Position numbers and translations under genes: made by a program. The notes under the pieces are model-generated. The model had not been told where the DNA came from. It saw only the letters and a program-made list of their open reading frames with translations, and did not search any database. A stretch of DNA of 64,000 bases from Thermoleophilaceae bacterium. Lineage in GTDB: Bacteria > Actinomycetota > Thermoleophilia > Solirubrobacterales > JACPNS01. Below, in pieces: positions 312 to 28,128 of the stretch. The stretch is taken from the NCBI GenBank assembly GCA_016462645.1, contig JAEMSX010000008.1:1-64000 (forward strand). Direction: 5' to 3'. Position 1 is the first letter of the stretch; the number at the start of each line of letters is the position of its first letter.

Positions 312-2720
312 TCAATGACGGATCCGGACTGTCGCCGGGACGAGAGAGGCGGACACCAGGGCGTGGACGTCGACATCGACGTCGCCGAGGTCAACGCTAA
401 CGACGACCGAGTACGGCAGGTCCTTGTCCCAACCCTCGCGACCGTCCTCCCACCAACCGAGAACCGGATACACGGCGAGCAGTCGCGTACCCGCGAGATG
501 GGAGGCCAGGACCGTTGTGTGATCGTGTTGCAAGGTGCCTCGCGAGCGCGCGTCGGCCGGAATCACCCACGGGTATGAGCCGGAGCCGGGAGTGACACCC
601 TGCTCGTGCACGACCTTGTTAATCCGCGCCCTGAACCCATCGGCGGTCTCGGTTGGACCTTGAAGGTCCCATCGGAGGCGGCCGCCCGCGTACGCCCGGC
701 GGGTCAGGTTGTCCGTCGGCTCGGCGAAGTACGAGAGGGTGACAGTCAGATCGACGTCTGATTCTCCGATGGCGTACAACTCGTCCTCTGGGAATGGGAT
801 CTCGATGAAGTCCGCCTGCCGATCTACCTTGGACCCCACGTGCCGGCTCGGCTTTAGCGAACCTTCGTAGACCATGACCGGCCGGTTCGAATCGCTCGCC
901 ATCGCAAGGTCAGGCCGTGGTACGCCGTAGCCGAACGAGCGAAGCAGATCGCGTTGGTCCGGGAACTGCGCCACAGCTGCGTCGGGCCACCGGGCGGTGT
1001 GTACGAGCAGCGCTCGCCAAGTGGAAGGCGCGAGCTCAGGGTGGGCTGCGGCAATCTGCGCGAGAGCGTTCGATGCCGCTGCGGCCGCTGGGCTCGTCTT
1101 ATACGTCCGACGCAACAAGCTTCCCGCTCCCCCGGCGGTCGACTGGAGCGTGAGGATGCTGAGGCCCTGTGCATCGGGATTCTCCAAACCGGCGCCCGGA
1201 GCGGTGTTACCCGCCTCCATCACAATGTCCGGCTTGATCGGTCTATTCGCGACGATGGCGGTTCGGCTATGCGGACTCAACTGACCCGCGGCCGCCAACG
1301 GAGCGGGATAGCCCTTCGAAGTGTCTTCAGCCGTCAGCACGTCGAGGGCGCTATACCCACCGACGGTGAGCACGTTCCACGCCTGGCCCGGCTGTTGCAG
1401 GTGCGGTGGCCCCAGGTTGATGTACGGGTAGTCCGCCGTATCAGTGATCGTGTCAGAGTTCCCGCCCGCGATAACGAGAAGGCGGCCGCGGCCCCCGTTC
1501 CACGCCAGGACGTCGGCGGCCACCGACCACGAAGTTCGGTCGGTGTTGCCGATCGTTGGATTGTCGGCACCGATGCTCAGGTTATGCACGACCGGTCTAC
1601 CACCCGCGAGGGATTCAGCGACATCGATCGACTCGACGGTTCGCTCGGCCCACATGACGCCGCGTTCGGGGTCACCGCCAGCGTCAGCCGCAGATTCGAG
1701 CAGTCGCATGGCGACGAGCCAGGCGTCCGCGTGGAGGAGACCGCCCGCGACGCCATCGGCGAGCGCCGAGTATGCAGCAACCCCTGCCATCTGAGTTCCG
1801 TGCCCGTCCACGTCGGCCGAGCCGAGAACGCCCGGCACGACGCTCTGTGCACCGAGAAGGATGGGACTGACGTACGGGTGCGAGGAGTCGATCCCGCTGT
1901 CATGGACCGCGACAACGACCGCGTCCTCGGGTGGTGGGTCGACGTCCGCCAACTCTCCAGCTTGGTCCTGTGCCTCAGCCAGAACGATCGGGAAGACCGT
2001 GGGCGCCAGGTGCACTTCGGCTGAATCAGGGAGAACGACCGGGAGGGCCTTCAGCGAAACCCCGCTTGCCAACACGACATGCACATCTCGCTCCGGCCCA
2101 CGGAAGACCGGGATTGCCTCAGCGCCGCCGTTGGTCAGCGCGGCGAACTGGGCAACCGCCGCATCGATAGTCCGGTGCTCCTCGGGGCTCAGTCGCGCTC
2201 CCCCACGGGTCCAGATCTCGACCCAGAGCCGTTCCTCGTCCGCGATGTCGTTCGCGATCTCGCCGAGACTCAAGTCCGCGATGGTTGCCAACGCAACGGC
2301 GTCAATGCGAGCAACCGGGTCCCTGAAGCGCGGATTGCCCTTCGCGGTGTTCTCTTCGGCGTACGCGACCGCCTTGTTCCGGAGTCCCACCAGGTCATCG
2401 GTGACGCGGAACGTCACCCGGCCATCGTCTGTGACGAGCAACTCGTTCTCGGACCTCGCGGGAACCAGCTTGCGAGCCACCAGCGGGTCCCCCAGCCCCG
2501 GGCCCACGGCTGTGACGAGCGCCGACAATTCGGCCCGCTCCTGCTCCGCGCGAACGGCAGCGATCTGCTCGGCGACCTGATCAAGCTGAGACAGAACGAT
2601 GGCAGCCTGCTGTGCACGATCGCGTTCGGGCACCCGCGGCGTCCGACCGGACCTCCGCGTGACGAACTGTTCGCGTTCCGCTTGGCGAAGCGCGAGAAGA
2701 GGAAGCCCGCTGACAATCAC
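312..2720 (-). CDS. Subtilisin-like serine protease (S8 family) of a protease/AAA+ pair
   Basis: An 802-residue S8 peptidase without an obvious signal peptide, so probably cytoplasmic. The triad is readable: Asp about 274 in VVAVHDSGID, His about 307 in DVDGHGTQMAG, Ser about 543 in TYKTSPAAA, plus the oxyanion Asn about 421 in VIAGGNSD. The Ser motif departs from the usual GTSxA. About 250 residues precede the catalytic domain and about 230 follow it. The start overlaps the stop of the upstream XRE regulator by four bases, so the two are translationally coupled. An AAA+ ATPase lies divergently 390 bases away. Such cytoplasmic S8 peptidases are often found beside an AAA+ ATPase, and a role as a stress- or phage-activated protease effector is inferred. 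Confidence 0.85.
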   Translation of the reverse strand: MIVSGLPLLALRQAEREQFVTRRSGRTPRVPERDRAQQAAIVLSQLDQVAEQIAAVRAEQERAELSALVTAVGPGLGDPLVARKLVPARSENELLVTDDGRVTFRVTDDLVGLRNKAVAYAEENTAKGNPRFRDPVARIDAVALATIADLSLGEIANDIADEERLWVEIWTRGGARLSPEEHRTIDAAVAQFAALTNGGAEAIPVFRGPERDVHVVLASGVSLKALPVVLPDSAEVHLAPTVFPIVLAEAQDQAGELADVDPPPEDAVVVAVHDSGIDSSHPYVSPILLGAQSVVPGVLGSADVDGHGTQMAGVAAYSALADGVAGGLLHADAWLVAMRLLESAADAGGDPERGVMWAERTVESIDVAESLAGGRPVVHNLSIGADNPTIGNTDRTSWSVAADVLAWNGGRGRLLVIAGGNSDTITDTADYPYINLGPPHLQQPGQAWNVLTVGGYSALDVLTAEDTSKGYPAPLAAAGQLSPHSRTAIVANRPIKPDIVMEAGNTAPGAGLENPDAQGLSILTLQSTAGGAGSLLRRTYKTSPAAAAASNALAQIAAAHPELAPSTWRALLVHTARWPDAAVAQFPDQRDLLRSFGYGVPRPDLAMASDSNRPVMVYEGSLKPSRHVGSKVDRQADFIEIPFPEDELYAIGESDVDLTVTLSYFAEPTDNLTRRAYAGGRLRWDLQGPTETADGFRARINKVVHEQGVTPGSGSYPWVIPADARSRGTLQHDHTTVLASHLAGTRLLAVYPVLGWWEDGREGWDKDLPYSVVVSVDLGDVDVDVHALVSASLVPATVRIRH

Positions 2721-3109: not shown

Positions 3110-4084
3110 ATGGCGAACGCCGAGTACCTGACCGAGTTGGTCCGCGCGCACTACAGCGGCGACGACCGGCGCTTCTCCAACCTCCTCAACCAGGTGATCG
3201 CAGCCGAGTCGCGCGCGGGCCATTCACGCCTTGCCGAGCGTCTGCGGGAACTGCGAATCGAAGCCACGCGCCCCGACTCCACGGCCAAGGCCACTCCGCT
3301 TGCACGAGCGCCGCGCAATCTTGAGCAAATCCTGTCCGTCGGCTACAGCGAAACGAAACTCGCCGACCTCGTATTGGCTCCGGAGACCCGCGGCTCGCTT
3401 GAGCGCTATGTGATCGAGCAACGACGAGCACAAGCACTCGCAGACCACGGCCTCAAGCCCCGCCGTCGCCTCCTCCTCCACGGACCATCCGGCTGCGGCA
3501 AGACAATGACCGCGCAAGCTCTCGCCGGCGAGCTCAAACTTCCACTGATCCGCGTTCGCCTAGAGGTGGTCTTCAGCAAGTTCCTGGGCGAGACAGCCAG
3601 CACACTTTCGGACGTCTTCGCAGAAGCTGCACGCGTGCGCGGCGTGTATCTTTTCGACGAGTTCGATGCGCTCGGACGAACCCGACTCGATGACAACGAG
3701 GTCGGCGAGATCAAGCGGGTAGTAACGACCTTCTTGCAGCTTCTCGACGCTGACCACAGCGACAGCCTCCTGATCGCCGCGACGAACACCGGACACGCGC
3801 TCGACACCGCCCTGTTCCGCCGGTTCGACGACGTCATCGAGCTTCCGGAGCCGACCGAGGCGCAGCGCCGAGAGCTGCTCAGCCGACTCCTTCGCCCATG
3901 GCGAATGAAGCCCACAGACAACCTGGTTGCCGAGACCGCCGGCCTGTCCTTTGCCGACATCCGTGCAGCAGTCGAGGATGCCCACAAGGAAGCGATCCTT
4001 GGCGATCAACCCCGACCGAGTCGCGAGTCCATCGCAAGCAGACTGACCGAACGTCAGTCGCGCGTACCTTCCCGAGCAGATTGA
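3110..4084 (+). CDS. AAA+ ATPase partner of the S8 protease
   Basis: A 324-residue AAA+ ATPase. Walker A is GPSGCGKT (about 125-132), Walker B LFDEFD (about 181-186), sensor 1 LIAATN (about 221-226), and an RRFDD arginine-finger-like element follows at about 237. The fold resembles FtsH/Vps4-type AAA modules. The roughly 120-residue N-terminal region has no recognisable domain and could bind substrate or the protease. The start is well marked by GAGGAGGTGA five bases upstream. It is transcribed away from the regulator-protease operon. In the usual pair the ATPase and peptidase genes run in the same direction, so the divergent order is a variant. It probably remodels or recognises targets for the protease. 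Confidence 0.85.
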   Translation: MANAEYLTELVRAHYSGDDRRFSNLLNQVIAAESRAGHSRLAERLRELRIEATRPDSTAKATPLARAPRNLEQILSVGYSETKLADLVLAPETRGSLERYVIEQRRAQALADHGLKPRRRLLLHGPSGCGKTMTAQALAGELKLPLIRVRLEVVFSKFLGETASTLSDVFAEAARVRGVYLFDEFDALGRTRLDDNEVGEIKRVVTTFLQLLDADHSDSLLIAATNTGHALDTALFRRFDDVIELPEPTEAQRRELLSRLLRPWRMKPTDNLVAETAGLSFADIRAAVEDAHKEAILGDQPRPSRESIASRLTERQSRVPSRAD

Positions 4085-5684: not shown

Positions 5685-5879
5685 ATGGAGATCACCTTCC
5701 GCCGACGTCATCCGGCCAGCAGACTGGAGCGTCGGCTGTTACGAATCGTGAAACCGAAGGTTCTGTCGCGGTCGCCCACGGTTCAGGTCGACCTCGTGCT
5801 CGACACGGCCGTGATTCGAGACAAAGACGCTACGAACACCCAGCCCGACGAGCACCACGACCGACGACTGCGATCCTGA
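5685..5879 (+). CDS. Small orphan frame, possibly the truncated 5' end of a lost gene
   Basis: A 64-codon frame beginning MEITFRRRHPASRLERRLLR, preceded by GAGGAA seven bases upstream and ten bases after the DUF4192 stop. Its first 45 residues look protein-like. The last 50 bases run into the 3' end of the convergent SARP-NACHT gene, where the composition becomes unconvincing. It may be the surviving start of a gene cut when the neighbouring operon arrived. No family recognised. Confidence 0.3.
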   Translation: MEITFRRRHPASRLERRLLRIVKPKVLSRSPTVQVDLVLDTAVIRDKDATNTQPDEHHDRRLRS

Positions 5880-8800
5880 AACCAACGTCGTAGAAGAGGT
5901 TGTAGGACCGGTCAACCGCTCGCGCACTGCATGCCGAGAGCGGCCCGAAGTGATACCAGGAGCCTCCCCGAACGACCCGTTCATCGAGACTGTCCGCGTC
6001 CAGACGCTTTGCGTCGAACTCCGGGTCGAATGGAAGGAACAGGGTCGCCGTCCATTCCCAGACGTTGCCAGCCATATCGGCTGGCCCGCCGGGCCACGGT
6101 TCCAGATGGATGCCAACTGTCGCTGGGTTTCGAAGATTGAGGGTGTTGGTGGTGACCAGGGCGCGCTCCTCATCCCAATCGTCGCCCCAAGGAAAAATCC
6201 GATCGTCGTCGGTCGGGCGAGCAGCGAGCTCCCACTCGAACTCGCTCGGGAGCACCGCAACACGGTCCTTGGCCAACGTGCCGTCCTGATGACCGCGGGC
6301 CGTCGCCCATCGGCAAAATGCCTCAGCTTCCCAAAAGTTGATGCCAACCACTGGTTGGTTGGCACGGTTGAAGCGCGAATCGTCCCAATAGAAGGGCGCC
6401 TGGCGGGGCGCTGTCCGCCTTGTAGCCTCAACCTGGAGGCGAGCGGGATCAATCTCGCCGTCGCGGATCTCCTTGGCGTGGTGTTCGTGGACGGTCTTGA
6501 GCCAGTCGCCTCGGATCTCGTCTAGCGTCCGCGAGTCTCCCCGCACCCACCTGAGGGCGCGGGGAGCCAGCCAGTAGTCACTGTTCGAGTATCCGTCGCC
6601 CTCGACAAAGGCACGGAACTCCGCATTCGTCACGGGATACCGCCCGATCTCGAACCCGTCCGTTTCCAAAGTGCGCGGCGGCCCAACGAACCCGCCCGTA
6701 GTCTCCGCCTCGGTAAGTTTCGTCGTACCAACTTGGCGCTCGCCCGCCTGAACGTGGACAAGATGCACGTACGGCGGACGGATCTCGCCCTCGGGTGTCA
6801 CGAACCGTTGATCCCCCAAAGCGGCGAGAGCTTCACCTGCTCGCTCTCGCTCCGGCAGCGTGATCTCGGGGTCTTCGACCTGCTGCTGCATCGCACCGCG
6901 GGCGTCCTCCCAGAGTCCCGCATCTTCCGGATCCAACCCCACGTCGAGGACGTAGCCGAAGTCCCAAAGTGCGAGGCGTTGACGACTGATCTCAGCGAGC
7001 ATCTCAGCGCCAAGTTGGGACGCGGCTGTGCTCTCGCTCGCCACAAGGTCCTCAACGAGGTTCAGAATGTTCGCGAGGTTGTCACCGTTGTGTCCAGCGA
7101 AGCTCGCCATGAGGCGGAACGGCTCACGCCAGTGCACTGAGGCGCCTCGATCGACAGCACTTCTCCGGTCTCGCCCTCCGCCTCTCGCGTAGTGCTGTCC
7201 CGCGAGGTACTCCTGAAAGTAGCGGTGCGAGAAGCGGAACCGATCAGGGCCAACCTGAAGTAGCAGGCCGTGACTGTTCTCGAACTGCGTTGCAAGTTTC
7301 TCTGGCGAAGGGGCTGACCTGCCCGCACCCGCACGCTCAAGTGCGCCAACGATCCGTCCGGCCTCGGTCGCGACCAACTCACGGGTGATGCCCTCATTGG
7401 AACTGGAGGCGCCCTCCTCAGCCGCGTGACTCCGGAACGCCACCTCCACAGCGAGTCTGACGATCGGCCCTGAAGCTTCACTCCCAGAACCGGGCTCCCT
7501 CTCGCGCCACGGAGGCGTTTCGGCGAGCATGAACTTGATCGCCTGGTCGCACACGACCGACCGGGAATCTGGGAGTTCTTGTTTCGAATGGATCAGAGTC
7601 AGCAAGGCCAGCAGGAGCGGCAGCTCCGCCATTTCCGAAATGGCGGGACGGTTCCGCAGCTCGTGCTGGAGGGCTTCACAGAGTTGCTGAGCCAAGTCTG
7701 CGCGGAACCCACCAGCCCGAGCTGCTGCTGCGTACCACTGAGACACGTACGAGTCCTTCTCGTCCGCACTCAGCGGGAGCAACTCAAGTTCGCGCTGGAT
7801 CGGCACCTTCCGACTTGGCTCGCTTTGCCGATAGTCGAAACTCCGGCACGTCACAACGACGCGGCACCCGTTTCGGATACCCAAGACGCCTGAGACTGAT
7901 TGGCGAACCGCGTCAAGATTGTGTTCCTTCACCTCATCGAGGCCGTCAAGAAGCAAGAGCGCTCGACCGTCATGGATCGCGCCTTCCAAGATGTTCAGAA
8001 GATCCACCTGCGCGTGGCGCCCGCCTCGGCTCTTCGCGGCTTCAACTTCTGGGACACCGCTAAGGAGATTCTCTTCGGGGGTGTCCCTTGGGTCGGGAAC
8101 GACGGTCCCCAGATTCACCCAGATGGGCAGGAGCCCGTCGTGGCCGTTTCCCGCGGCACGCGCAGCGAGCATCGCGACCGATGTGGACTTGCCGGCACCG
8201 GGCTCGCCTAGAACGATCAGAGGTTCATTCGAACCTTCCACAAGCTCAAGAAGATCGGTGCCGAGGTCAGCCATCGACTCGTGCGTTCCGATGTTTCCCG
8301 ATCTCTCCTGCGAGTCAGCTGCTCGGAGGGGGGTCCAGATGTCCTCAAGGGTGACGAAGTCATCGGCCAGCTCGCTGGCAGTCCAGGATGTCGGGTTTCC
8401 AAACGCGAGCGTGATGCCGCGCTTCTGGATGTCTCGTAGATAGGCCGCGAGTAGCGGTGTGCTTGCGGGTGACCCGGCAGTCCGGCGCGTCACCTCGACT
8501 TCGAGCTCATCGCGCTTCTCGAGAAGGCGTTCGTGCCGCAGCCTAAACTCGATGAAGAGGCTCGCCACGCGCTCCACGTCCCGGAAGGGCTCGGCGGGGT
8601 CGGCAATCCAGATCGCCTCAAGTGCGCGGCATTCGTCCAGCAAGTCGCGAACCTCGTCTTCAGGCAGCCGCTGAACCTCGTGCGCCGCGACGAGCAGTGT
8701 CCTGGCCCGCTTGTCGAAGTAGAGAATGTCGACCTCGTCGGGATCCACCTCGAGGCAGTACTGCTTGCGGGCAATCGGCCACCCGTCATCACCCCGCAGC

Positions 8801-9045
8801 CGAGCCAGCGGCGTCTGGATGGCGCTGTCGGAGGCCCAGTCAAGATCGTTCTGGTCGTACATGGCGTGTCGGAGGGTCTCCTTGGAGACGTTGCGGCCCG
8901 CATGCAAGGCAAGAACGACAAGAGCGTGCAGCTTCTTTGCTGCCGTTGGCACCGTGCCGACCGTCGAGGTGAACGTTCCTGCAAGGAACCTGAGCCTGAA
9001 CTGCAACTCGCCCCCGCCTGCTCCCCCCTCGTAGGCCATGGTCAA
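5830..9045 (-). CDS. SARP-NACHT-FGE fusion: STAND-type regulator/sensor
   Basis: A 1071-residue three-part protein. Residues 15-100 are an OmpR/SARP winged helix (AAKKLHALVVLALHAGRNVS, then SAIQTPLARLRG) and 100-190 a BTAD-like helical part (VDPDEVDILYFDKRAR). Residues 270-620 form a NACHT NTPase: Walker A VLGEPGAGKST (about 278), Walker B LLLLDGLDE (about 363), and the FSHRYFQEYLAG motif typical of STAND proteins (about 605). Residues 755-1065 are an FGE/sulfatase-modifying-factor-like domain (GRYPVTNAEF, MAGNVWEWT, VVRGGSWYHF, VGFRIAVV). SARP-STAND fusions such as AfsR control secondary metabolism, and NACHT proteins also act in phage defence. Here it ends a metabolic operon, overlapping the gene before it by four bases, with SARP-like repeats in the operon promoter. 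Autogenous control with ligand sensing by the FGE-like domain is inferred. Confidence 0.88.
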   Translation of the reverse strand: MTMAYEGGAGGGELQFRLRFLAGTFTSTVGTVPTAAKKLHALVVLALHAGRNVSKETLRHAMYDQNDLDWASDSAIQTPLARLRGDDGWPIARKQYCLEVDPDEVDILYFDKRARTLLVAAHEVQRLPEDEVRDLLDECRALEAIWIADPAEPFRDVERVASLFIEFRLRHERLLEKRDELEVEVTRRTAGSPASTPLLAAYLRDIQKRGITLAFGNPTSWTASELADDFVTLEDIWTPLRAADSQERSGNIGTHESMADLGTDLLELVEGSNEPLIVLGEPGAGKSTSVAMLAARAAGNGHDGLLPIWVNLGTVVPDPRDTPEENLLSGVPEVEAAKSRGGRHAQVDLLNILEGAIHDGRALLLLDGLDEVKEHNLDAVRQSVSGVLGIRNGCRVVVTCRSFDYRQSEPSRKVPIQRELELLPLSADEKDSYVSQWYAAAARAGGFRADLAQQLCEALQHELRNRPAISEMAELPLLLALLTLIHSKQELPDSRSVVCDQAIKFMLAETPPWREREPGSGSEASGPIVRLAVEVAFRSHAAEEGASSSNEGITRELVATEAGRIVGALERAGAGRSAPSPEKLATQFENSHGLLLQVGPDRFRFSHRYFQEYLAGQHYARGGGRDRRSAVDRGASVHWREPFRLMASFAGHNGDNLANILNLVEDLVASESTAASQLGAEMLAEISRQRLALWDFGYVLDVGLDPEDAGLWEDARGAMQQQVEDPEITLPERERAGEALAALGDQRFVTPEGEIRPPYVHLVHVQAGERQVGTTKLTEAETTGGFVGPPRTLETDGFEIGRYPVTNAEFRAFVEGDGYSNSDYWLAPRALRWVRGDSRTLDEIRGDWLKTVHEHHAKEIRDGEIDPARLQVEATRRTAPRQAPFYWDDSRFNRANQPVVGINFWEAEAFCRWATARGHQDGTLAKDRVAVLPSEFEWELAARPTDDDRIFPWGDDWDEERALVTTNTLNLRNPATVGIHLEPWPGGPADMAGNVWEWTATLFLPFDPEFDAKRLDADSLDERVVRGGSWYHFGPLSACSARAVDRSYNLFYDVGFRIAVVGRGARRAGCS

Positions 9046-10034
9046 AGTATGCCGTTCCCGCTCGTGCGAAGGATCGGATTGAACTCACTCAAAGGCCCCG
9101 CCAGGTCCGAGGCCGCTTGAAGATCGCGGTAGCACTCGAAGACCATCTGACGTGCCATCAGGCGCAACGAATCAAGTCCCAGCCCGAAGTCGAAGTCGGT
9201 GCAGGCCTCAAGGACGACGAGCCCAGGATGGAGCCGGCGAAGTGGAGTGAGGATCTCGCCTTCGATCGCCTGACGCGCAGTTGCAAGGTTGGCGTCTGAA
9301 CCGTCAATGCACGCGAGCACAGCCTCATCGACGATCGCCTGCTGGAGCTCAGTCAGAAGGATGATGTTCATACCTCTCGGGCCACCAAGCCTTCGGTACT
9401 GCTCATTGGCCATAGCCGCTCCAAGAACCACGAACGGTCGGCCGTCAAGCATGCCGGTCCTCTCGAGCTGACCGATCGTGGAGTGAACGACCCCGTGCGC
9501 GGTCAGTTCAGGAACGGCATCGTCAGAGATTGGCTCGTAGTCCACCGACTCCGCAGCTGCCTTGAACGCCCTTGCCTCGCCCGCCACGCGTACGGCGTCA
9601 CCCAAAGTTTCAGACAACGCGTTGCATGGGAGAGCGACACGAACACGACCGTGCCCCCTCCGCATCGCCAGCACCGCCTCGTCGTGAATGACACACGCGA
9701 AACGCGCGACCATGTCTGAAGGAATGTCGTGCGCCTTAACCGCTACGAGAACTTCGTCTGTCAAGCGCCCCTGCTCGGCCCAAACCCGTTGAACTGTCAC
9801 GCGCTTCAAGTAAGCCACGTCGCCGATGTGGCCGAACATGATGCGGCGATACTCGTCCAGGAACGGCAGGTCCTGCGTTGCGAGGAGCCGCGTCAGGAAC
9901 GCACGCTCTTCCTCGGCCATGATGGCGAGGTATCGGGTTGCGGCCTCCCTGCCGAAGTCTCCTACGACAACGTCGAAGAGCGTCGGCAGATCCCTGAGCT
10001 GGTCAAGGAGGCCGTTGGGTCCGTTCATCGTCAC
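9042..10034 (-). CDS. Aspartate/glutamate racemase-like protein
   Basis: A 330-residue protein whose C-terminal two thirds resembles cofactor-independent Asp/Glu racemases. It has one catalytic-Cys-like motif, ALPCNALSE (Cys about 137), and a second, LEACTDFDFG (Cys about 278), at the spacing expected for the PCN and GCT motifs. About 100 extra N-terminal residues have no recognised domain, making it longer than the usual 230-250. It overlaps RidA upstream and the SARP-NACHT gene downstream by four bases each. It would supply or consume a D-amino acid for the neighbouring oxidase. The match is by motif only, so another racemase-fold isomerase is possible. Confidence 0.6.
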   Translation of the reverse strand: MTMNGPNGLLDQLRDLPTLFDVVVGDFGREAATRYLAIMAEEERAFLTRLLATQDLPFLDEYRRIMFGHIGDVAYLKRVTVQRVWAEQGRLTDEVLVAVKAHDIPSDMVARFACVIHDEAVLAMRRGHGRVRVALPCNALSETLGDAVRVAGEARAFKAAAESVDYEPISDDAVPELTAHGVVHSTIGQLERTGMLDGRPFVVLGAAMANEQYRRLGGPRGMNIILLTELQQAIVDEAVLACIDGSDANLATARQAIEGEILTPLRRLHPGLVVLEACTDFDFGLGLDSLRLMARQMVFECYRDLQAASDLAGPLSEFNPILRTSGNGIL

Positions 10035-10480
10035 TGCCTCAGCGCGAGGACCAGTTCGACCTCAACTGCCCAATCTCCGGGAAGAACCATGCCCACTGCC
10101 GAGCGTGCGTGGGACGGTTGCCCGTCGAAGACCGAGTTAAGGAAATCTGTGGCGCCATTGATGACCGATGACGTGTCGTTGAAGCCGGGTGCCACGTTCA
10201 CCATGCCGACGAGCTTCGCGACACGTTCGATCTCGTCCGCGTCGGCCACTGCAAGCGCCGCCCGTAGGCAATTGACAGCGCACACCTCCGCGGCCTTCTG
10301 TGCGGTTGCGAGGTCGATGTCGTCTCCCACCTTTCCCTTGATCGCCACGTCTCCGAGGCTCGGGATCTGGCCAGAAGTGAATATGAGAGAGCCAACCCTC
10401 GTGGCCGCGTGGAAGCTCAAGACCTGGAGCGGAGCCGGCGACAGGTCGTAGCCGAGCTTCCTAGCAATGTTGAGGTCCAT
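10031..10480 (-). CDS. RidA/YjgF family imine deaminase
   Basis: A 149-residue RidA-family protein (Rid/YER057c/UK114). The FTSGQIP segment near the N terminus and the conserved Arg in SHARSAVGMVLPG with the following VEVELVLAL are typical of active members. RidA enzymes hydrolyse reactive enamine/imine intermediates to ketoacids and ammonia, protecting PLP enzymes. That fits its place between an FAD amino-acid oxidase, which makes imines, and the racemase, in an operon that also holds a PLP aminotransferase. It starts about 30 bases after the oxidase stop, with AAGGAG upstream, and overlaps the racemase-like gene by four bases. Confidence 0.88.
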   Translation of the reverse strand: MDLNIARKLGYDLSPAPLQVLSFHAATRVGSLIFTSGQIPSLGDVAIKGKVGDDIDLATAQKAAEVCAVNCLRAALAVADADEIERVAKLVGMVNVAPGFNDTSSVINGATDFLNSVFDGQPSHARSAVGMVLPGDWAVEVELVLALRQ

Positions 10481-10511
10481 GATTCTTGTACTCCTTTGAA
10501 TACTGGTGCTG

Positions 10512-11645
10512 CTACTTGATGGCTGCTAATCCCGTTCGACCGATCGAACAGGCCTCCCACGGAATCTCGGGGGTTTCCAGGCCCAGAACTGAGTCAGCGA
10601 GCATGCGGCCGCCCGCGGGGCTGTGCATGATTCCTTCGCCACCCCACCCGCAGGTGTTGAAGAATCCCTCAACGGTTGGAACGGGCCCGACGATCGGAAG
10701 AATGTCGGGGGTCAGCGGCCGAACCCCGGAGGTACCGGACACAACCCGGGCATCGCGAAACGCTGGCACCCGTCGTGAGGCGACGCGCTGAACCTCGGCC
10801 CAGAAGGCAAGGTCCGGTTCATCACTTACGCTGCCGTCGGCCTCAAGCCCCATGCCAACCAGCGCGCGACCTCCGCCCAGGCCGCGGAAATACCACTCGA
10901 CGCCGGCCTCTTCGACCATTGGGCCGATCTGGACCTCCGGTGACAAGCACTCGACGAAGAACAATGATCGCCGAAGGTTGTCGATCGGCAGGTCGACGCC
11001 CACCCAAGAAGCGACCGCCGCGGCATTCCCGCCTGCCGCGTTCACAACGATGTCGCACGCTACGCGAGACGACGACGTGAATACGGACCGGACTCGACCT
11101 CCGTGAACCTCAATCCCCGTCGCAACCTCGCCGGTGTGAATCTCTGCACCAAGGCGCTGGGCCCCCGTCAAGTAAGAGCGGACAAGTTGGTCTGGGTCGA
11201 TGACCGCATCGTCAGGACCGAGCACCCCGAACTCGATCCCGTCCGTTTCAACTGCTGGCGAAAGCTCGCGGATGGCGCCAGGATCGACCAGCTCTGACGG
11301 AACCCCCATCTCAAGACGAAGCTCATGCTCTGCCTTGTAACGGTCGACCAAGTCCGGCGGAACCAAGCTAAGGAAGCCGATCCGGTTGAAGTTGAGGGGC
11401 TCCCCGAAGCGCTTCTCAAATCCCAAGAGCCAGTCATAGGAGTACTTCGACAACGCGATCTTCGTGCGGTTCTCGCGTGACTTCATCAGCATGGAGCCGG
11501 ACCGACCGGACGATCCCCGCCCCGGGGCGCCGAGCTCTTCGAGGAGGAGGATGCGCGCAATACCTGCCTCGGCGAGGTGGTAGGCCGCGCTCGTACCCTG
11601 CACACCCGCTCCGATGATGATCGCTTCGTACCCTGCGTCAGTCAT
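10512..11645 (-). CDS. FAD-dependent amino-acid/amine oxidase (DAO family)
   Basis: A 377-residue flavoprotein of the D-amino-acid oxidase/sarcosine oxidase family. The N-terminal dinucleotide fold is IIIGAGVQGTSAAYHLAEAG. Near the C terminus are RPLTPDILPIVGP and a GWGGEGIMHSPA glycine-rich flavin-contact segment. Family members oxidise secondary or D-amines to imines, passing electrons to oxygen. It overlaps the upstream aminotransferase by four bases. With RidA and a racemase-like protein next door, a D- or N-substituted amino acid is a likely substrate, the imine being hydrolysed by RidA. The exact substrate cannot be told from sequence. Confidence 0.85.
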   Translation of the reverse strand: MTDAGYEAIIIGAGVQGTSAAYHLAEAGIARILLLEELGAPGRGSSGRSGSMLMKSRENRTKIALSKYSYDWLLGFEKRFGEPLNFNRIGFLSLVPPDLVDRYKAEHELRLEMGVPSELVDPGAIRELSPAVETDGIEFGVLGPDDAVIDPDQLVRSYLTGAQRLGAEIHTGEVATGIEVHGGRVRSVFTSSSRVACDIVVNAAGGNAAAVASWVGVDLPIDNLRRSLFFVECLSPEVQIGPMVEEAGVEWYFRGLGGGRALVGMGLEADGSVSDEPDLAFWAEVQRVASRRVPAFRDARVVSGTSGVRPLTPDILPIVGPVPTVEGFFNTCGWGGEGIMHSPAGGRMLADSVLGLETPEIPWEACSIGRTGLAAIK

Positions 11646-12787
11646 CTCGATACCTCCTTCAGCCGTCCAACGATGTCGTCAAGTACGGACCCCGACAGTG
11701 CGGCGTAGCTGAGCCGCAAATGGCCCGTGTCGCCTGCGGCGAAGTACGACCCCGGCACCGTGAGAACGCCGACGTCAGACGCGACGCGCTTGGCCGCTTC
11801 CTCATCGGTCATGCCGACGAAGGGGTGCTTCAACCAAGCAAAGAAGCCACCCCACGACTGCACCTCGAAGCCGGTATTCGCGAGTGCAAGCCGTTCGACG
11901 AAGCGTTCACCCTTCAGCCGGATGTCGTCGGCGAGCGCACCCCGCCAGTCGGTCAGATGCGCCAACGCGAACTCGGCGAACGCCTGTCCGGGCGAAGGCG
12001 CAACGATGGAGATGCAGTCGTGCCACTTGGCCGCAGCCTCCAACACTCGCTGGCCTCCGATGGCGGCACCAACTCTGTAGCCAGGGATGGAAAACTCCTT
12101 CGACATGCTGCGGAGCGAAATGAAGTGGTTGCGCCATTCGTCGTTGGCAAAGAGTCGATGGGGAGGACGGCTGGGGTTGCGGCGGACGAATGCATAGGTC
12201 TCGTCCAGGATGAACGGAATCTCGTAGCGCCGACAGGCCGACGCGATCAGTTCTATGGACTTACCTGAGAGCTCGAGACCCGTTGGGTTGCCGGGGCTCA
12301 CTGCGCAGATCGCAGCGGCTCGCTCGGTCGCAGCCAGGAGAGCCTTCCCATCAACCCTTCCGTCTCCGGACAGAGTCAGGTAGATCGGCTCAATGCCGTT
12401 GAGTTTCAGCCACATGTCGTGGTTGAAGTAGTAGGGACTCAGGAGGACGACGCTGTCCCCCGGCGCCACGAGGGCACGGGTGACCACACAGAAGGCCTCG
12501 TTACAGCCCGCAGTTACCAGCACGTCTTCCGGAGTGATTTCGGTTGTTCCGTACTGGATGCAAAGGTCCTCAGCGATGGCTTCGCGGAGAGACGCGGCCC
12601 CCCATCGTGGGCCATAGTGCTCCGATCCTTCTTCCAAGCCGACCTTGTCCTGAGGAGGTGTCGCACCGCTGGTGCCTTGGCTTGCGTCGATCACCGCCAA
12701 GGATCCGGTGTAGTCCTTTCCCCAAGAAAGAGCCTGTGAGATCGGCGGAACAACAACGTCGCCACCGAGAGTGCGGAGGGTGGTCAT
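11642..12787 (-). CDS. Class I/II PLP-dependent aminotransferase
   Basis: A 381-residue fold-type I aminotransferase. It has the SPGNPTG loop (about 164-170), Asp about 194 in FILDETY, which binds the PLP nitrogen, and the Schiff-base Lys about 230 in SMSKEFSIPGYRVG. The start overlaps the methyltransferase stop by four bases and the stop overlaps the oxidase start by four. A methyltransferase-aminotransferase pair recalls the 3-methylarginine route, in which a 2-ketoacid is C-methylated and then re-aminated. That role is inferred from context. Confidence 0.88.
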   Translation of the reverse strand: MTTLRTLGGDVVVPPISQALSWGKDYTGSLAVIDASQGTSGATPPQDKVGLEEGSEHYGPRWGAASLREAIAEDLCIQYGTTEITPEDVLVTAGCNEAFCVVTRALVAPGDSVVLLSPYYFNHDMWLKLNGIEPIYLTLSGDGRVDGKALLAATERAAAICAVSPGNPTGLELSGKSIELIASACRRYEIPFILDETYAFVRRNPSRPPHRLFANDEWRNHFISLRSMSKEFSIPGYRVGAAIGGQRVLEAAAKWHDCISIVAPSPGQAFAEFALAHLTDWRGALADDIRLKGERFVERLALANTGFEVQSWGGFFAWLKHPFVGMTDEEAAKRVASDVGVLTVPGSYFAAGDTGHLRLSYAALSGSVLDDIVGRLKEVSR

Positions 12788-13824
12788 CGCGACGACGCCC
12801 TCGCGCCCCGTCGAAGGAGGTGCCCGAACTTGATCCCAAGTGGGTCGTAAGTCGGGTTCGGGAAGACTTCTCTGACCACCTCTACGCCGGCCTCGTCGTA
12901 GATCGCCTTCCAGTCTTCGACCGGCAGCAACCGCTGCTCCGTGAGCCGGTGGATCAGGAAGTAGGGGTTGTAGTAGCCCAAGGCGAGATCGGACGGTTCC
13001 GTAGAAAGCGGGTGCCGGCGGTCGACCTCGATCACCACCCAGGTTGCCTCAGGGTCTGCATCGAAGGTCCGCTGGAGTAGGCCGACTACCGCGGCACGGC
13101 CGGACTGCTCCAAGACCTCTTGAAGCACGAAGGCGGTGATATAGCACGTGCCGGGCGGAAGCCCTTGGGCTTCTGTTGGGATGTGCAGCGCGTCGCCAGC
13201 AAGAATTTTCAGGTTCGCAAGGCCCCGCCGTGCCGCCGCGACCTCCGCCACCTTCCTGGCGCCCTCGTCCGGCTCGATGCCGAATGCGGGAACGTCTGTG
13301 AACGCGGCGGCGATCTCAGACACGAACGTCCCGTCACCGCAACCAAGATCGACCACAGCCGACGGACTCGTTCCCGAGCGCATTAGCTCAAGAACCATCG
13401 GGAGCGCATCGTGGTCACTGATCCCACAGCTACCAATGGCGACGTGAGCGCCATCTCGCCTGGCATAGGGAGCCCCAGCCTTGAGCGTCCCTGGAAGTTG
13501 CGCGAACGTGCCGGCATACCCACCGACGAGGAGCTCGTACCACGGACGCACCGTCGACAGCTCGCGTCCTCGATCGGTCAATGCGGCACGGGCGCCACGT
13601 TGCTCGATGAGCCCCTCGTTCTCCAGATACTCCAACAAGCCGCTCAGACGCTCGGGATGAAGGCCGAGTGTGTGCTCGAGTTCCGTGGTCTGCTTGGGGC
13701 CGTCGGCTAGGGCGTCGATGAGTCCAACCTGAAACGCCGCGAAGATGGCATGCGCGAGAGCAAGCCCGCGAATCGGCTGGAGGTGGGCGGCCAGCACCCC
13801 TTCCGACAACTCGCCACCACTCAT
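12784..13824 (-). CDS. SAM-dependent C-methyltransferase, possibly 2-ketoarginine-methyltransferase-like
   Basis: A 346-residue class I methyltransferase. An N-terminal dimerisation/winged-helix part (LQPIRGLALAHAIFAAF, about 15-90) is followed by SAM motif I VVDLGCGDGTF (about 157-167) and an FGIEPDEGARK acidic loop. The layout and the opening segment recall MrsA-type 2-ketoarginine methyltransferases, from memory, but O-methyltransferases share the same two-domain plan. It is the first gene of the six-gene operon, and its start ATG lies about 100 bases downstream of the CTTGC direct repeats. With the aminotransferase directly downstream, methylation of a 2-ketoacid at the beta carbon is the favoured role. 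Confidence 0.8.
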   Translation of the reverse strand: MSGGELSEGVLAAHLQPIRGLALAHAIFAAFQVGLIDALADGPKQTTELEHTLGLHPERLSGLLEYLENEGLIEQRGARAALTDRGRELSTVRPWYELLVGGYAGTFAQLPGTLKAGAPYARRDGAHVAIGSCGISDHDALPMVLELMRSGTSPSAVVDLGCGDGTFVSEIAAAFTDVPAFGIEPDEGARKVAEVAAARRGLANLKILAGDALHIPTEAQGLPPGTCYITAFVLQEVLEQSGRAAVVGLLQRTFDADPEATWVVIEVDRRHPLSTEPSDLALGYYNPYFLIHRLTEQRLLPVEDWKAIYDEAGVEVVREVFPNPTYDPLGIKFGHLLRRGARASSR

Positions 13825-13923
13825 GATCTGTCCCCCTGTAGGCGTTGCGATCGCCCGTCGATGCCCCGTTCAGACTGGCGAGATCGCCGATCCCAGCCAT
13901 GCTCACGATCCTGATCGACTTCT

Positions 13924-13961
13924 CTTGCCCCCACCTTGCAGCGACCTTGCACCTAGCTTGC
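13924..13961 (-). promoter_or_regulatory. SARP-type operator: four direct repeats at 11-bp spacing
   Basis: CTTGC (GCAAG on the coding strand of the operon) occurs at 13924, 13935, 13946 and 13957, exactly 11 bases apart. The middle two extend to ACCTTGCA. Short direct repeats in phase with the helix are the known site form for SARP/OmpR-type activators. They lie 100-140 bases upstream of the methyltransferase start, and the last gene of the operon carries a SARP domain. A further dyad, GGCGA-GA-TCGCC (13877-13888), lies between the repeats and the gene. No convincing -10 could be fixed. Function is inferred. Confidence 0.6.
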
Positions 13962-14134
13962 GCCCCGATCCGACCCGCGGCGGCTCTCCGCAATGCCCGG
14001 TCTCGCTTGCGGAACGCAGGGTTCGCGCAATCGAGCAGCAAGGCTTCGTCTGCAGGCTCTGAGCGGGGAACTCACCCACTCAGAACGGCCCGGGATGGGA
14101 CACGCACCGACGTTCGCTTGACCAAGGAGGCTTG

Positions 14135-14419
14135 ATGAAGGCAACAACCGCACATTGGCCGGCCGAGCCACTCAGAACACATCCGGCCCCTGATCCCCCG
14201 ACACCGACACCGACGACAACCGCGCTTGCCGTGCGTGAGCCGATCGCGTACGTCTTCGAACTCTCGCGATTCGGCGTTCTGGTCGGCGGCGGCGTGGTCA
14301 TCGCGCCATCCAGCACAGCGGCAAAGCGCACAGCGGAACTCGCCCTGGCTGGTGGAGCCGACGTACGCATCGTCGAACCCACAGGACCGCCGTCGAAGCC
14401 GCAGAAGAGCACGGCCTGA
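14135..14419 (+). CDS. Small hypothetical protein, divergent from the SARP-NACHT operon
   Basis: A 94-residue protein. An AGGAGG Shine-Dalgarno lies four bases before the ATG, and a TTG one codon earlier is less likely. The N-terminal third is Pro/Thr-rich. The rest (FELSRFGVLVGGGVVIAP, then AELALAGGADVRIVEP) looks like a short alpha/beta fold. No family is recognised. It shares the 310-base intergenic region with the methyltransferase gene, so it could be co-regulated by the repeats there. Confidence 0.6.
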   Translation: MKATTAHWPAEPLRTHPAPDPPTPTPTTTALAVREPIAYVFELSRFGVLVGGGVVIAPSSTAAKRTAELALAGGADVRIVEPTGPPSKPQKSTA

Positions 14420-14489
14420 TCCACTCCGAGGTCTTCACCCCCCTCGGTCGCACCTCAACTCCAGCAGGATCCCTGAAGGACTTGGCTCC

Positions 14490-14690
14490 ATGTTCACCAT
14501 TGCCGCTCCGTCGCTTGCACACTCAGTGACCACATCCGCAACCGGTTCGCTGCTACAGGCGACCGATGCCCTGATGCAGAGACTGGCTGACCTGCCCGAG
14601 ATCGAGACCGACGAGATGCTCACGGGGGCCTTGGCGGTGAGCGCGCTGAACGCCAGGGCCGTGCTCGATTGCTACTTCAAGTGCACCTAG
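14490..14690 (+). CDS. Small hypothetical protein
   Basis: A 66-residue frame starting MFTIAAPSLAHSVTTSATGS, with GAAGGA nine bases upstream. It is rich in Ala, Leu and Thr and mostly helical in look (LLQATDALMQRLADLPEIE). It follows the previous small gene by 70 bases on the same strand, and its stop overlaps the 3' end of the convergent AAA ATPase by four bases. No family is recognised. A longer reading of this frame upstream overlaps the 94-residue gene and is unlikely. Confidence 0.5.
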   Translation: MFTIAAPSLAHSVTTSATGSLLQATDALMQRLADLPEIETDEMLTGALAVSALNARAVLDCYFKCT

Positions 14691-17275
14691 GCTGCCGCGT
14701 CTAGGTAGGCCTTCCGGGCGTCTTGGAGCTCCTGCCAGTGCGCCTCCAGCCCCGTGAGCGTAGGCGAGACGCCGAGCGTGGGCAGAGGCTGTGAGTGCCC
14801 GGGGATAAAGCGGCAGGCATCCTCGAAGACGCGGGTAACCACCTCTGAGGCCGTGGGCAGAGCGCCAGCCTTGATGTTGCTGAGCGTGGTCATCCGGATG
14901 TTCGGCTGGTACCGCTGAGACACGCCGGCCAGCAGTTCGGTCTCGGTAAAGACCTCACACCACGACCGGATCCAGTCGTAACCCTCTCGGACCAACGCTG
15001 CACGAGCTTCCCCGTCGACGGCGCGAGCTGCCTCAACTGTCTTGTTGATGCTCGTCTTGAGGTTGCCGAGGGTGTCCCAGCGTGGGCCAGAGGCCCGTGT
15101 GACCTTGCCTTTGCCGTCCTCGTCGGTGATCTGGAAGTAGGTGCATCGCCTCGACGTCTCGAACAGCGACAGCAGCGTCGCCGCGAAGAAGATGTCGTGG
15201 GTGAAGACGATGACCTGGTTGTCGTCGGCGAGGCTCGCGATGCGCCGAGCCACCTCGTTGATGCGTCGGTGATCAAGGCTGGAGACCGGGTCGTCGAAGA
15301 TGACCGGCGCTGTGATGCCTGCGAGCCGTGCCTCCGCCAGGAAGTCTGCGAGGGCAAGCACCTTCTGCTCTCCCTCGGAGAGGACCTTTGACGGCTTGTG
15401 TCTACCTCCGAGCATCTTGCGTCGTTGAGCACGTCCCTGGCGTCCGACAAACTCGACCTTCAACTCGGGAGCGCGCAGAGCCTTGCATTCTTCCGCGAAG
15501 AGCCGGTCGAAGTTCTGGTTGATGAGCTGGTCGCTGGCGACCTTGGCGAGCTCCGTTACAGACCGTCCTAGCGCGGTGAACTTCGCACCGAGAACTCGGA
15601 GCTTGTCAGCCTCCTTGGCGCGCTCGACTTGCGCCTGGATCGTCGGCCAAGACTTACCCAACTCCCCCGCGGCTGTCAGTTCGGCTAGCTCTCGCCTCTT
15701 GTCGCGGAGGGCGTCAGACCGGTTCGCCGACTGCATCTTGAGCTCCGTGATGTCGTCGGCAGTAGCCGTGAGAGACACCGTCAACTCAGCCCCGATCGCA
15801 GGCACGTTCGCCACCGCGGAGTCGTCGATCGATTCGCCCGACCGAATCGCCGTGGTTACTAAAGCGACTGTTGCACGGATCGCAGCGACGTTGGCGTAGG
15901 CGGATGGCTTGTCCTCGCGACCTTCATGCTCGTCCACGAAAGCAGCGACGTCGGGCAACGCGACAGCCAGGATCGGGGCAGTGAGACCACCGATGTTCTC
16001 CTCGACCGAGGCGATGTCCAAACTGATCCTGTCGGTCAGGTACTCGCTGTACTTGGCGACCAGTGCCTGCGCAGAGTCGGATAGTGGCTGACGGCAGTAG
16101 AGGCACCTGCCCGAGTCATGAACACCCAGCGCCTCTAGATGCGACCGGTACGCGTCGCCACTTGTCACGAAGTCGTCCCACGTCTCCTCGGGATCGGCCG
16201 GCAAATCCGCAGCGGCGAACAGATCGGAGCGGAAGGTTCGGTAGTCCTGTTGAAGCTCAGTGAGCCGCGCACTTAGGGAGCTGAGTTCCTCCACATTCAG
16301 GCCTTCAAGCGTGGCAGCGGCGGCGGCTGCCTGGCGGAGCACACGTTCGCTGCGCTGCCGCTCTGAGATCTGTGCGTCCAGAGTGTCCGCTTCGAGCGCC
16401 GCAACCGCACGGCGAAGAACATCCACCCGGTGATCGACATCGGACCCTCGCTCGGCGCGCGCATCAAGTGCTGCCAAGTCGGTGGATGCTCCAAGCGTCT
16501 CTACGAGCGCGTAGATCGTCGATTCTCGCGGAAAACGGCTCAACAAAGTCGTCGAGCCGGCACCGAGATCACGGATCGCGACGTCGACTCGGTCGTGGAC
16601 ACCCTTGAGCGCGATATTCACGTGGTTGAACAGCGCGAGGACGGTCGGAACGTAGACGTACTCCAAGTCGTCATCGACGTGAAAGTTCACGGCGGGGCTG
16701 TCAAAAATGGACATGCGAGTGAAGGGGGCAACGCCCTGCTCCCCTGACCAGCTCAGGGTCTTGGCGTCCGGCCCGACGGTGTACCCAACCTTGGCAGTTT
16801 GCGCGACCTCCTCTGTGACTGCAATGTTCCCGAGGATCGTGTCGGCCGTGCGGCTTCCGGCCAGCGCCTTGAAGATGCGGGAGTAGCCCGTCTTTCCAGT
16901 GCCGTTCTCGCCGAACAGGATGGTCATGCCGGCGTGAGGCTCGATGACCGAGCCCGGAACGATCGCGTTGATTCCCGTCACTTCCGAGAGTTTGGTGACT
17001 GCCAGAGGAAGTTCGGCATCCTCCTCCGTGGCCTCGACGGCCAGATCCGGCTCGACTGGCAGAGTGCGCTCGTCTAGCCCCTTCTCCTGTCGAAAGAGCG
17101 CGTACGCCCAGTCGAGCTCGTCGTCCGGCAATGCCCGGCCGGAACTGAGCACTCGTCTGACGACCGCTCGGACCCACTCGTCGTTTGCGTTTGCCCACGC
17201 CGCGAGAACCTCGCGCGGGTCCAGGACGGCTGAGCCCTGCGGATCCCCCTCGATTGGGCCTGCTTCCTCGGTCAC
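14687..17275 (-). CDS. RloC/PrrC-type AAA ATPase with zinc-hook-like CxxC
   Basis: An 862-residue SMC/ABC-like ATPase. Walker A is LFGENGTGKTGYSR (about 118), followed by long heptad-rich coiled-coil arms. A CLYCRQPL CxxC sits between the arms like a Rad50 zinc hook. Then come the LSEGEQKVLALADF signature, Walker B APVIFDDPVSSLDH and a VIVFTHD switch. This plan is shared by RloC/PrrC anticodon nucleases, which guard restriction systems. I cannot make out a definite nuclease triad in the C-terminal 100 residues. It is last in the type III restriction operon, ten bases after Res. A back-up effector triggered when restriction fails is the favoured role. Confidence 0.8.
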   Translation of the reverse strand: MTEEAGPIEGDPQGSAVLDPREVLAAWANANDEWVRAVVRRVLSSGRALPDDELDWAYALFRQEKGLDERTLPVEPDLAVEATEEDAELPLAVTKLSEVTGINAIVPGSVIEPHAGMTILFGENGTGKTGYSRIFKALAGSRTADTILGNIAVTEEVAQTAKVGYTVGPDAKTLSWSGEQGVAPFTRMSIFDSPAVNFHVDDDLEYVYVPTVLALFNHVNIALKGVHDRVDVAIRDLGAGSTTLLSRFPRESTIYALVETLGASTDLAALDARAERGSDVDHRVDVLRRAVAALEADTLDAQISERQRSERVLRQAAAAAATLEGLNVEELSSLSARLTELQQDYRTFRSDLFAAADLPADPEETWDDFVTSGDAYRSHLEALGVHDSGRCLYCRQPLSDSAQALVAKYSEYLTDRISLDIASVEENIGGLTAPILAVALPDVAAFVDEHEGREDKPSAYANVAAIRATVALVTTAIRSGESIDDSAVANVPAIGAELTVSLTATADDITELKMQSANRSDALRDKRRELAELTAAGELGKSWPTIQAQVERAKEADKLRVLGAKFTALGRSVTELAKVASDQLINQNFDRLFAEECKALRAPELKVEFVGRQGRAQRRKMLGGRHKPSKVLSEGEQKVLALADFLAEARLAGITAPVIFDDPVSSLDHRRINEVARRIASLADDNQVIVFTHDIFFAATLLSLFETSRRCTYFQITDEDGKGKVTRASGPRWDTLGNLKTSINKTVEAARAVDGEARAALVREGYDWIRSWCEVFTETELLAGVSQRYQPNIRMTTLSNIKAGALPTASEVVTRVFEDACRFIPGHSQPLPTLGVSPTLTGLEAHWQELQDARKAYLDAAA

Positions 17276-17285
17276 TGTTGTTCTC

Positions 17286-20200: not shown

Positions 20201-20435
20201 TTTCGAGAATTTGGTCGGGTCCAAGGAGAAGTTGGCTGTTGCCGTAACCAGTGGCGCTGGCACTTCCATCCACCCCGAGGGCGAACTCTCGTTGTGCAGA
20301 TCGGGCCGCGCGACCGGGGTCGATCTTATACGTGATGTTGTCGGCGAAAGGCTGTCGATGCCGAGCGCGGAAGCAGTCCACCACGGCTTCGACCGCAACC
20401 GTCTGGAAGTCCTGAACCTTAAACTGAAGCTTCAC
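17286..20435 (-). CDS. Type III restriction endonuclease, Res subunit
   Basis: A 1049-residue SF2 helicase-nuclease. Motif I is METGTGKT (about 110-117), motif II ILIIDEPQRLG, and the C-terminal helicase motifs include SHSALREGWDNPN and QEVGRGLRL. The C-terminal PD-(D/E)xK nuclease reads Asp about 977 (YNPDWAIA), then VAETKG with Glu about 995 and Lys about 997. All parts appear intact and the length is normal for Res. It translocates along DNA and cuts near unmodified sites together with Mod, encoded two bases upstream. Confidence 0.92.
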   Translation of the reverse strand: MKLQFKVQDFQTVAVEAVVDCFRARHRQPFADNITYKIDPGRAARSAQREFALGVDGSASATGYGNSQLLLGPDQILENVHAVQRRTSGLPLSTDLIASPAAGLNLDVEMETGTGKTYVYIKTIMELHRHFGWSKYVVVVPSVAIREGVKKSFEITADHFLAEYKSQARAFVYDSDHLEEVETFSSDDGVQVMIINAQNFNRDAKKADTDVEGKGKATGLKMFKTLDGFRSRRPIDVIAANRPILIIDEPQRLGSNPKKPSETLKALGKFNALFALRYSATHAIEHNKVHRLDALDAYNKKLVKKIAARGISVKGLAGSSAYLYVDGLELGKGADFPKARVELEVQTKGGPIVRKTLKVQQGSRLHDLSGGIEAYKGLVIDDIDAISNTVTLLDGQTLQGGQVTNDVTDEQKRRLQIREVIRAHLEKEQQLFGRGIKVLSLFFIDEVVRYRDYDQPDRLGAYAQVFEEEYEALRVEKLAELDLDGTGAYRNFLERDAVRDVHNGYFSIDKKTGRWVDSDSSDASDEKQGTSRDAEAYDAILRDKEKLLDRDYPLRFIFSHSALREGWDNPNVFTLGFLKKATPGDSRRQEVGRGLRLAVDQNGERTDNPVTVHDINVLTVVTEESYLDFVKGFQDETLRLLSSRPRKATPDYFFGAVLLDMAAGAEHKVTLDEAKQLQHWLIKHDFIDYDQQLTEKWIGRTGLSEIPEMPTALQPFVNQVVELIDSLHVQAPKVDNGRKGQVIPMNQANFSKKEFQELWNRISRRVVYQVDFDSQELIINCVRVLDTSLQVARLQYVVVQGIQRDVVEAEHLESGESFKVARTKTEESSLSASSTVPYDLLGEIAEKTNLTRRTCAAILQGVRPDTFAKFKQNPEQFITEASRLINEQKAAAVVEHIEYDLLDDRYDSSIFTENQTAQDLSKAVHTPNRNVYEYVLDDSEVERAFGAALDVSDEVVVYTKLPRGFKIPTPLDDYNPDWAIAFKKGSIKHVYFVAETKGSLSSLELRGAEKAKIECARKLFKKLNDAADTPGIKYDVVTNYTELMQLVTA

Positions 20436-20437
20436 GG

Positions 20438-22537: not shown

Positions 22538-22546
22538 CGTTTCCTC

Positions 22547-26478: not shown

Positions 26479-26675
26479 GGGCCGACCTCCGTGCCCGAGG
26501 TCTCGTCGGCACCCGACCGGCGGACCCAGGCGTCGACCTCTGTCACCTGGAACTTCCAGAGCCGGCCGACCCGGTGGGCGGGCATGTTCTTCTTGGCGAT
26601 CCAGGTGTAGATGCTGTCCTTGGTGACGCCGAGGTGCTCGGCGATCGCGTCGGCAGACACCCACGGTTCAGTCAT
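26475..26675 (-). CDS. Excisionase-family helix-turn-helix protein
   Basis: A 66-residue winged-helix protein of the excisionase/MerR-like HTH_17 group: MTEPWVSADAIAEHLGVTKD, then SIYTWIAKKNMPAHRVGRLWKF. It heads the restriction operon and overlaps the helicase start by four bases. In this setting it is more likely a transcriptional regulator of the operon than a recombination factor, since the window holds no intact integrase. The CCGGTT-TG-AACCGG dyad 35-50 bases upstream is its probable operator. Confidence 0.88.
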   Translation of the reverse strand: MTEPWVSADAIAEHLGVTKDSIYTWIAKKNMPAHRVGRLWKFQVTEVDAWVRRSGADETSGTEVGP

Positions 26676-27967: not shown

Positions 27968-28128
27968 ATCACTCAGCTCTTCGTTCGTCTCGGCTCGAGC
28001 TGACGCGTGCTTCAGATGTAGCAAGCGCGGTCCAGACTCGTCGTCTTCAGTGATAGGGACACTGACCGGCCTCGATAGCGGTGCCCTCGCAGCGGGCTTG
28101 CACGTGCGATGCAACCAAACCCGGCGTG

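Follow-up and report, generated by a model that had tools for sequence, protein, structure and literature searches.

The window analysed here is a stretch of 64,000 nucleotides from a Thermoleophilaceae bacterium (positions 1 to 64,000 of contig JAEMSX010000008.1, assembly GCA_016462645.1), and the subject of this work is a unit of six genes and 8 kb within it, in which the enzymes of a predicted amino-acid-modifying pathway lie together with a STAND protein. The six open reading frames (ORFs) are intact, all on the minus strand, and run from 13824 to 5830. In order of transcription they encode an S-adenosylmethionine (SAM)-dependent C-methyltransferase of the 2-ketoarginine methyltransferase (MrsA)/MppJ type (12784-13824, 346 aa), a relative of TIGR04543; a pyridoxal phosphate-dependent aminotransferase of class I/II (11642-12787, 381 aa; PF00155, Aminotran_1_2); a flavin adenine dinucleotide (FAD)-dependent oxidase of the DAO family, of the sarcosine/glycine/D-amino-acid oxidase type (10512-11645, 377 aa; PF01266); a RidA/YjgF-family protein of the imine/enamine deaminase type, hereafter Rid (10031-10480, 149 aa; PF01042, Ribonuc_L-PSP); a racemase-like protein in which two cysteine motifs are conserved (9042-10034, 330 aa); and a STAND protein of NACHT-FGE architecture (5830-9045, 1071 aa; PF05729 and PF03781). 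Four junctions are 4-bp overlaps of stop and start codon, namely those between methyltransferase and aminotransferase, aminotransferase and oxidase, Rid and the racemase-like protein, and the latter and NACHT-FGE, and the remaining junction, between oxidase and Rid, is a gap of 31 bp; the last of the overlaps presumes a TTG start at 9045, and an in-frame ATG two codons later, at 9039, would turn it into a gap of 2 bp. A first-pass annotation had described six genes on one strand with four-base overlaps at four of the five junctions, exactly as the ORF coordinates have it; its family labels stand by Pfam profile for the aminotransferase, the oxidase, Rid, NACHT and FGE, and for the methyltransferase as a TIGR04543 relative, but its "racemase" and "SARP" find no profile confirmation. 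Ahead of the methyltransferase, a gap of 862 bp (13825-14686) with two small ORFs divergent from the operon divides it from the next upstream gene, that of a PDC-S06 ATPase, and because of this the six genes look like a separate predicted transcription unit. These two plus-strand ORFs, at 14135-14419 (94 aa, with a good ribosome-binding site) and 14490-14690 (66 aa), have no match in Pfam.

The same unit is found in an alphaproteobacterium, Alisedimentitalea scapharcae, whose plasmid NZ_CP123587.1 gave the one relative of the racemase-like protein among 72,556 plasmids, and which carries on one strand, and in identical order, the genes of the methyltransferase, the aminotransferase, the FAD oxidase, Rid, the racemase-like protein and an FGE-NACHT protein. 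Identities between the copies are 46% for the methyltransferase, 34% for the aminotransferase, 43% for the oxidase, 61% for Rid, 29% for the racemase-like protein and 47% for NACHT-FGE (from residue 198). It is not credible that chance alone put six families together in the same order in the genomes of two unrelated bacteria, and, judged by gene content and order, the six-gene set is a real conserved unit. The first-pass annotation would have been refuted had homologues of the regulator never been found beside these enzymes; the closest NACHT-FGE homologue found adjoins the same five. Only the Alisedimentitalea copy has in addition, 22 bp ahead of the methyltransferase gene (7331-8137 of the plasmid locus), the gene of a WelO5-like 2-oxoglutarate (2OG)-Fe oxygenase, which carries HxD and not the halogenase motif.

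There was no third copy in 50,697 phage records, in seven viral-contig scans, or in approximately 1,590 genome searches with racemase-like queries, in which some genomes were counted twice, and which covered relatives, the bacterium's own phylum, and the phyla of a gammaproteobacterial genome and of genomes of Chloroflexi, Planctomycetota and Acidobacteriota; two weak matches to these queries, of about 20 bits and with internal stop codons, were treated as noise. An alignment scan for NACHT-FGE took in 84,980 species genomes, was limited by its pattern and thus leaves room for further copies; at the generic FGE or NACHT-FGE loci that it returned (at least 80, among the matches listed) the other five genes were absent. 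In the class to which the window belongs, a search with TIGR04543 gave no other strong member (the next best reached 105 bits), and relatives of the same genus and order lack the unit. It is rare and appears to be laterally acquired, and this sparse spread, with the unit missing in relatives, fits laterally moved defence genes.

With respect to the chemistry, a profile built from the two operon methyltransferases matches the 2-ketoarginine methyltransferase of PDB 8r4z at 3.4e-81, as against 4e-19 for MppJ, and the SAM motif VVDLGCGDG is intact. Methylation of a 2-ketoacid at C3 is a well-supported prediction for this enzyme, arginine is likely to be the skeleton that is methylated, and the product is likely to be an amino acid of the beta-methylarginine type. 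One of the two positions that hold histidine metal ligands in related ketoacid methyltransferases appears here as Gln (Q235, the other being H292), as it does in the Alisedimentitalea methyltransferase and in those of the ketoarginine type from Streptomyces; these positions correspond, by an equivalence drawn via MrsA, to the metal-ligand histidines H244 and H296 of SgvM (PMC10502145). The missing histidine was dropped as an argument, because a Streptomyces plasmid methyltransferase that clears the curated TIGR04543 cut-off of 425 bits, with 454 bits, also has Gln. The aminotransferase matches PF00155 at 3.6e-42, its nearest NCBIfam families are PRK07550 (311 bits) and GntC (206 bits), and the lysine of its SxSK motif, K230, is kept in both copies.

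The oxidase belongs to DAO by its profile match (PF01266, 1.3e-62, 212.8 bits for a cut-off of 27.9), has its GxGxxG motif as IIIGAGVQG, and forms with its counterpart a subfamily of their own, the best plasmid relative being the Alisedimentitalea copy at 43% and the next group lying at about 31%. Rid passes PF01042 with 28.0 bits for a cut-off of 27.3, and its catalytic arginine, R126 in HARSAVGM, is kept in both copies. In the racemase-like protein the motifs PCN (C137) and EACTDF (C278) are invariant between two copies at 29-31% identity and resemble those of the Asp/Glu racemases (PF01177); a profile comparison with MurI was weak (E 0.092), with the second cysteine motif aligned. An AlphaFold model of this protein made without an alignment was too poor (pLDDT 40), and its fold matches were disregarded.

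The sixth protein can be divided into a tentative winged helix-turn-helix (wHTH)/SARP-like region (residues 1-195), NACHT (256-440), a helical part (441-755) and an FGE/C-type-lectin-fold domain (756-1060). NACHT is recognised by PF05729 (6.7e-12, 46.0 bits, cut-off 26.7) with its Walker A (GEPGAGKST) and Walker B (LLLLDGLDE) motifs intact, and the C-terminal domain by PF03781 (FGE-sulfatase, 9.2e-40). At the N-terminus, Trans_reg_C is reached at E=0.02, under its cut-off, the BTAD model has no match, a tblastn search gave a single, non-significant match to a BTAD protein, and the Alisedimentitalea protein starts with a transmembrane helix and has no wHTH-like region. SARP, which the first-pass annotation had named as part of the regulator, is weakened by this evidence; because its signature is faint here and the other copy has none, we do not count it among the parts that define the unit. 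A model of this N-terminus, also made without an alignment (pLDDT 44), was poor and its fold matches were likewise set aside.

The FGE domain is the most conserved part of the protein, at 54% between copies. The first cysteine of the catalytic pair of an annotated bacterial FGE is replaced by His/Asn, the second column keeping its Cys; the pair being broken, the domain is probably a non-catalytic binding module. A ligand-facing strip (residues 1037-1054 of the window protein) was compared with that of 25 other FGE domains from the NACHT-FGE scan: in the operon pair it is 89% identical, as against 54% in the core, and in 210 other STAND-FGE pairs it has a mean of 30% and a maximum of 61% at a core identity of 50%, figures that come from 18 columns picked after the alignment was viewed. 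Common to the operon pair, and missing from almost all other FGE domains, is an insert that contains an HxHH motif (residues 853-856). The conservation of the strip suggests that what the domain senses is a fixed ligand, for instance a metabolite of the pathway or some conserved component, and not a phage antigen that changes; control by a diversity-generating retroelement (DGR) was ruled out, as the ligand face is conserved.

Both copies lie among defence genes. Upstream of the operon in the window, and on the same strand, a block at 14687-26664 encodes the PDC-S06 ATPase, the res and mod proteins of a type III restriction-modification system, a DUF4391 protein and an HKD-SNF2 helicase, with a guanine-cytosine content of about 60-64%, where most of the remaining window has 64-69%. 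Downstream, an ietS-like subtilase gene (312-2720, minus strand; PADLOC IetS, 8.4e-40) and an ietA-like AAA ATPase gene (3110-4084, plus strand; PADLOC IetA, 3.9e-72) are divergent, with a DUF4192 gene between, and ietS and ietA are a known defence pair. In the Alisedimentitalea plasmid the unit comes after helicases, a cytosine methylase and an MvaI/BcnI endonuclease; a defence neighbourhood, with restriction-modification genes, is thus present in two of two copies, in keeping with the defence system that the first-pass annotation had considered possible. None of the six proteins matches a PADLOC model over its full length, and within neither operon is there an exporter or transporter gene. 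Elsewhere in the window are two matrixin-like metalloprotease genes that neighbour each other (27131-28114 and 28481-29263, both on the minus strand).

From the above, the reading that we favour, tentatively and at somewhat less than an even chance, is that of a mobile defence operon of the defence-island type, in which a STAND protein gates the production of an intracellular amino-acid antimetabolite. A 2-ketoacid, most likely 2-ketoarginine, would come from the racemase-like protein and the FAD oxidase, while Rid removes the imine. C3 of this ketoacid would then be methylated by the MrsA-like enzyme, and the aminotransferase would restore the amino acid, now of the beta-methylarginine type or a related one with a beta-methyl group. 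NACHT-FGE would be the switch, whose non-catalytic, C-type-lectin-fold FGE domain would sense one fixed ligand, and which on activation would turn the pathway on or up, in the window copy by binding DNA and in that of Alisedimentitalea from the membrane. The product would then be an antimetabolite that stops the phage from growing or arrests the infected cell, and would probably act within the producing cell, because neither operon has an exporter. In the route as first sketched, the operon-like unit kept elsewhere and a chemistry that fits C3-methylation of a 2-ketoacid followed by re-amination survive; the SARP component, lacking in the other copy, is weakened, and the racemase step stays putative.

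Several results weigh against this reading. The methyltransferase matches TIGR04543 at 2.5e-97 and 326 bits, below the curated cut-off (as is that of Alisedimentitalea, with 357 bits), and TIGR04544, the beta-methylarginine aminotransferase family, whose cut-off is 350, is outside the 25 best NCBIfam families of the aminotransferase, the lowest of which scored 77.7 bits; for these two reasons 2-ketoarginine is less secure as the substrate. The racemase-like protein has no match in Pfam (searched even at E 10), NCBIfam or PDB, and to call it a racemase is a reasonable guess, with the two cysteine motifs in its favour and a MurI comparison that is weak. The N-terminal output domains of the NACHT proteins are unlike between copies, with the result that a shared output cannot be transcriptional control; none of the pathway enzymes is recognisable as a toxin, a nuclease or another kind of killing effector; the strip on which the fixed ligand is argued was chosen with the alignment in view; and two copies are known in total.

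The same cassette could instead make an amino-acid-derived signal on infection, of which the FGE domain would be the receptor, as with nucleotide signals in CBASS and Thoeris. The position of FGE as the most conserved domain, a ligand face fixed between copies, unlike that of other STAND-FGE proteins, the shared HxHH insert and the fact that enzymes and NACHT-FGE are always in one operon all speak for such a pairing, which we nevertheless consider unlikely, given that five enzymes are many for a signal that has to be fast, that no enzyme looks infection-triggered and that the receptor would be without an evident killing domain. It is similarly improbable that the unit is a small natural-product cluster with its pathway regulator, which secretes a beta-methyl amino acid antibiotic and stands near defence genes by chance: neither operon holds an exporter or a resistance gene, restriction-modification genes adjoin the unit in each of the two genomes, which are unrelated, and the regulator of the other copy is membrane-anchored and devoid of a DNA-binding domain, even if SARP-STAND regulators are usual in actinobacterial gene clusters and relatives of the methyltransferase are encoded in clusters on Streptomyces plasmids, together with ATP-grasp, MFS and amidinotransferase genes.

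A metabolic or macromolecule-modification pathway, in which an amino acid (for example D- or beta-methyl) would be degraded or remodelled, or a building block supplied, and in which NACHT would only regulate, seems to us very unlikely. An oxidase with Rid is a usual catabolic pair for D-amino acids, and the additional 2OG-Fe oxygenase (HxD) of the Alisedimentitalea copy means that the end product may vary; the C3-methyltransferase and the aminotransferase, on the other hand, are anabolic, and sparse occurrence beside defence genes would be unusual for catabolism.

What is known of immune signalling and chemical defence in bacteria concerns mainly nucleotides and secreted antibiotics, and an NLR-like switch tied to the C-methylation of an amino acid would, if true, add amino-acid chemistry to intracellular immunity. 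It would also put forward a definite candidate for the ligand of a STAND-FGE protein, the molecules sensed by this group not being known. It is conceivable, if rather doubtful, that a STAND (NLR-like) protein with a full amino-acid-modifying pathway constitutes a new antiphage class, whose beta-methylated arginine-type product would be an intracellular antimetabolite or a signal read by FGE; should the function be borne out, there would be a real chance of such a class. Literature searches found no published description of a system with these families, and the unit is apparently undescribed.

Among known systems, the closest in chemistry is the beta-methylarginine (MeArg) pathway of Pseudomonas syringae and Streptomyces, with MrsA (TIGR04543) and a bifunctional aminotransferase (TIGR04544). 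The operon methyltransferase is homologous to MrsA over its whole length and its gene is directly followed by that of an aminotransferase, as in Streptomyces NBC_00467; in contrast, it falls under the family cut-off, the aminotransferase is of another subfamily (24% to that of Streptomyces), and the operon adds the oxidase, Rid, racemase-like and NACHT-FGE genes and is without an exporter. A 2-ketoarginine-methyltransferase-like gene also lies on a plasmid of Streptomyces sp. NBC_01420 (4838-17014 of locus L115), with dioxygenase, amidinotransferase, ATP-grasp and MFS genes, a cluster that probably makes a different guanidino natural product.

As to the switch, the operon protein resembles the AfsR-type SARP-STAND regulators of actinobacterial secondary metabolism in that a wHTH-like N-terminus precedes a STAND ATPase and that biosynthetic genes lie alongside; it differs from them in that the SARP signature is weak here and absent in the other copy, and in that an FGE sensor takes the place of the tetratricopeptide repeats (TPRs) that AfsR carries. 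With the antiphage proteins Avs and bNACHT it shares a NACHT switch, a C-terminal sensing region and residence in defence islands, but it has no N-terminal nuclease or other killing effector, its N-terminus being wHTH-like or a membrane helix, and no PADLOC model of bNACHT or Avs matches it. STAND proteins with C-terminal FGE/C-type-lectin domains are proposed antigen sensors, some of them diversified by retroelements (PMC10907252; also PMC7159879, PMC8195603), and the operon protein, a STAND NTPase with a C-terminal FGE-type C-type-lectin domain, is built like these, the DGR targets included; unlike them, the operon pair has a ligand face that is conserved and not variable, and is coupled to an amino-acid enzyme cassette. 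The joining of STAND, pathway and FGE, put forward in the first-pass annotation as not a known combination, is accordingly new in its coupling to the enzymes, and not in the STAND-FGE fusion, which those papers had already described. In other words, the chemistry of the methyltransferase and aminotransferase and the STAND-FGE architecture are known, and what is new is their fixed association, in defence islands, with an oxidase, Rid and a racemase-like protein.

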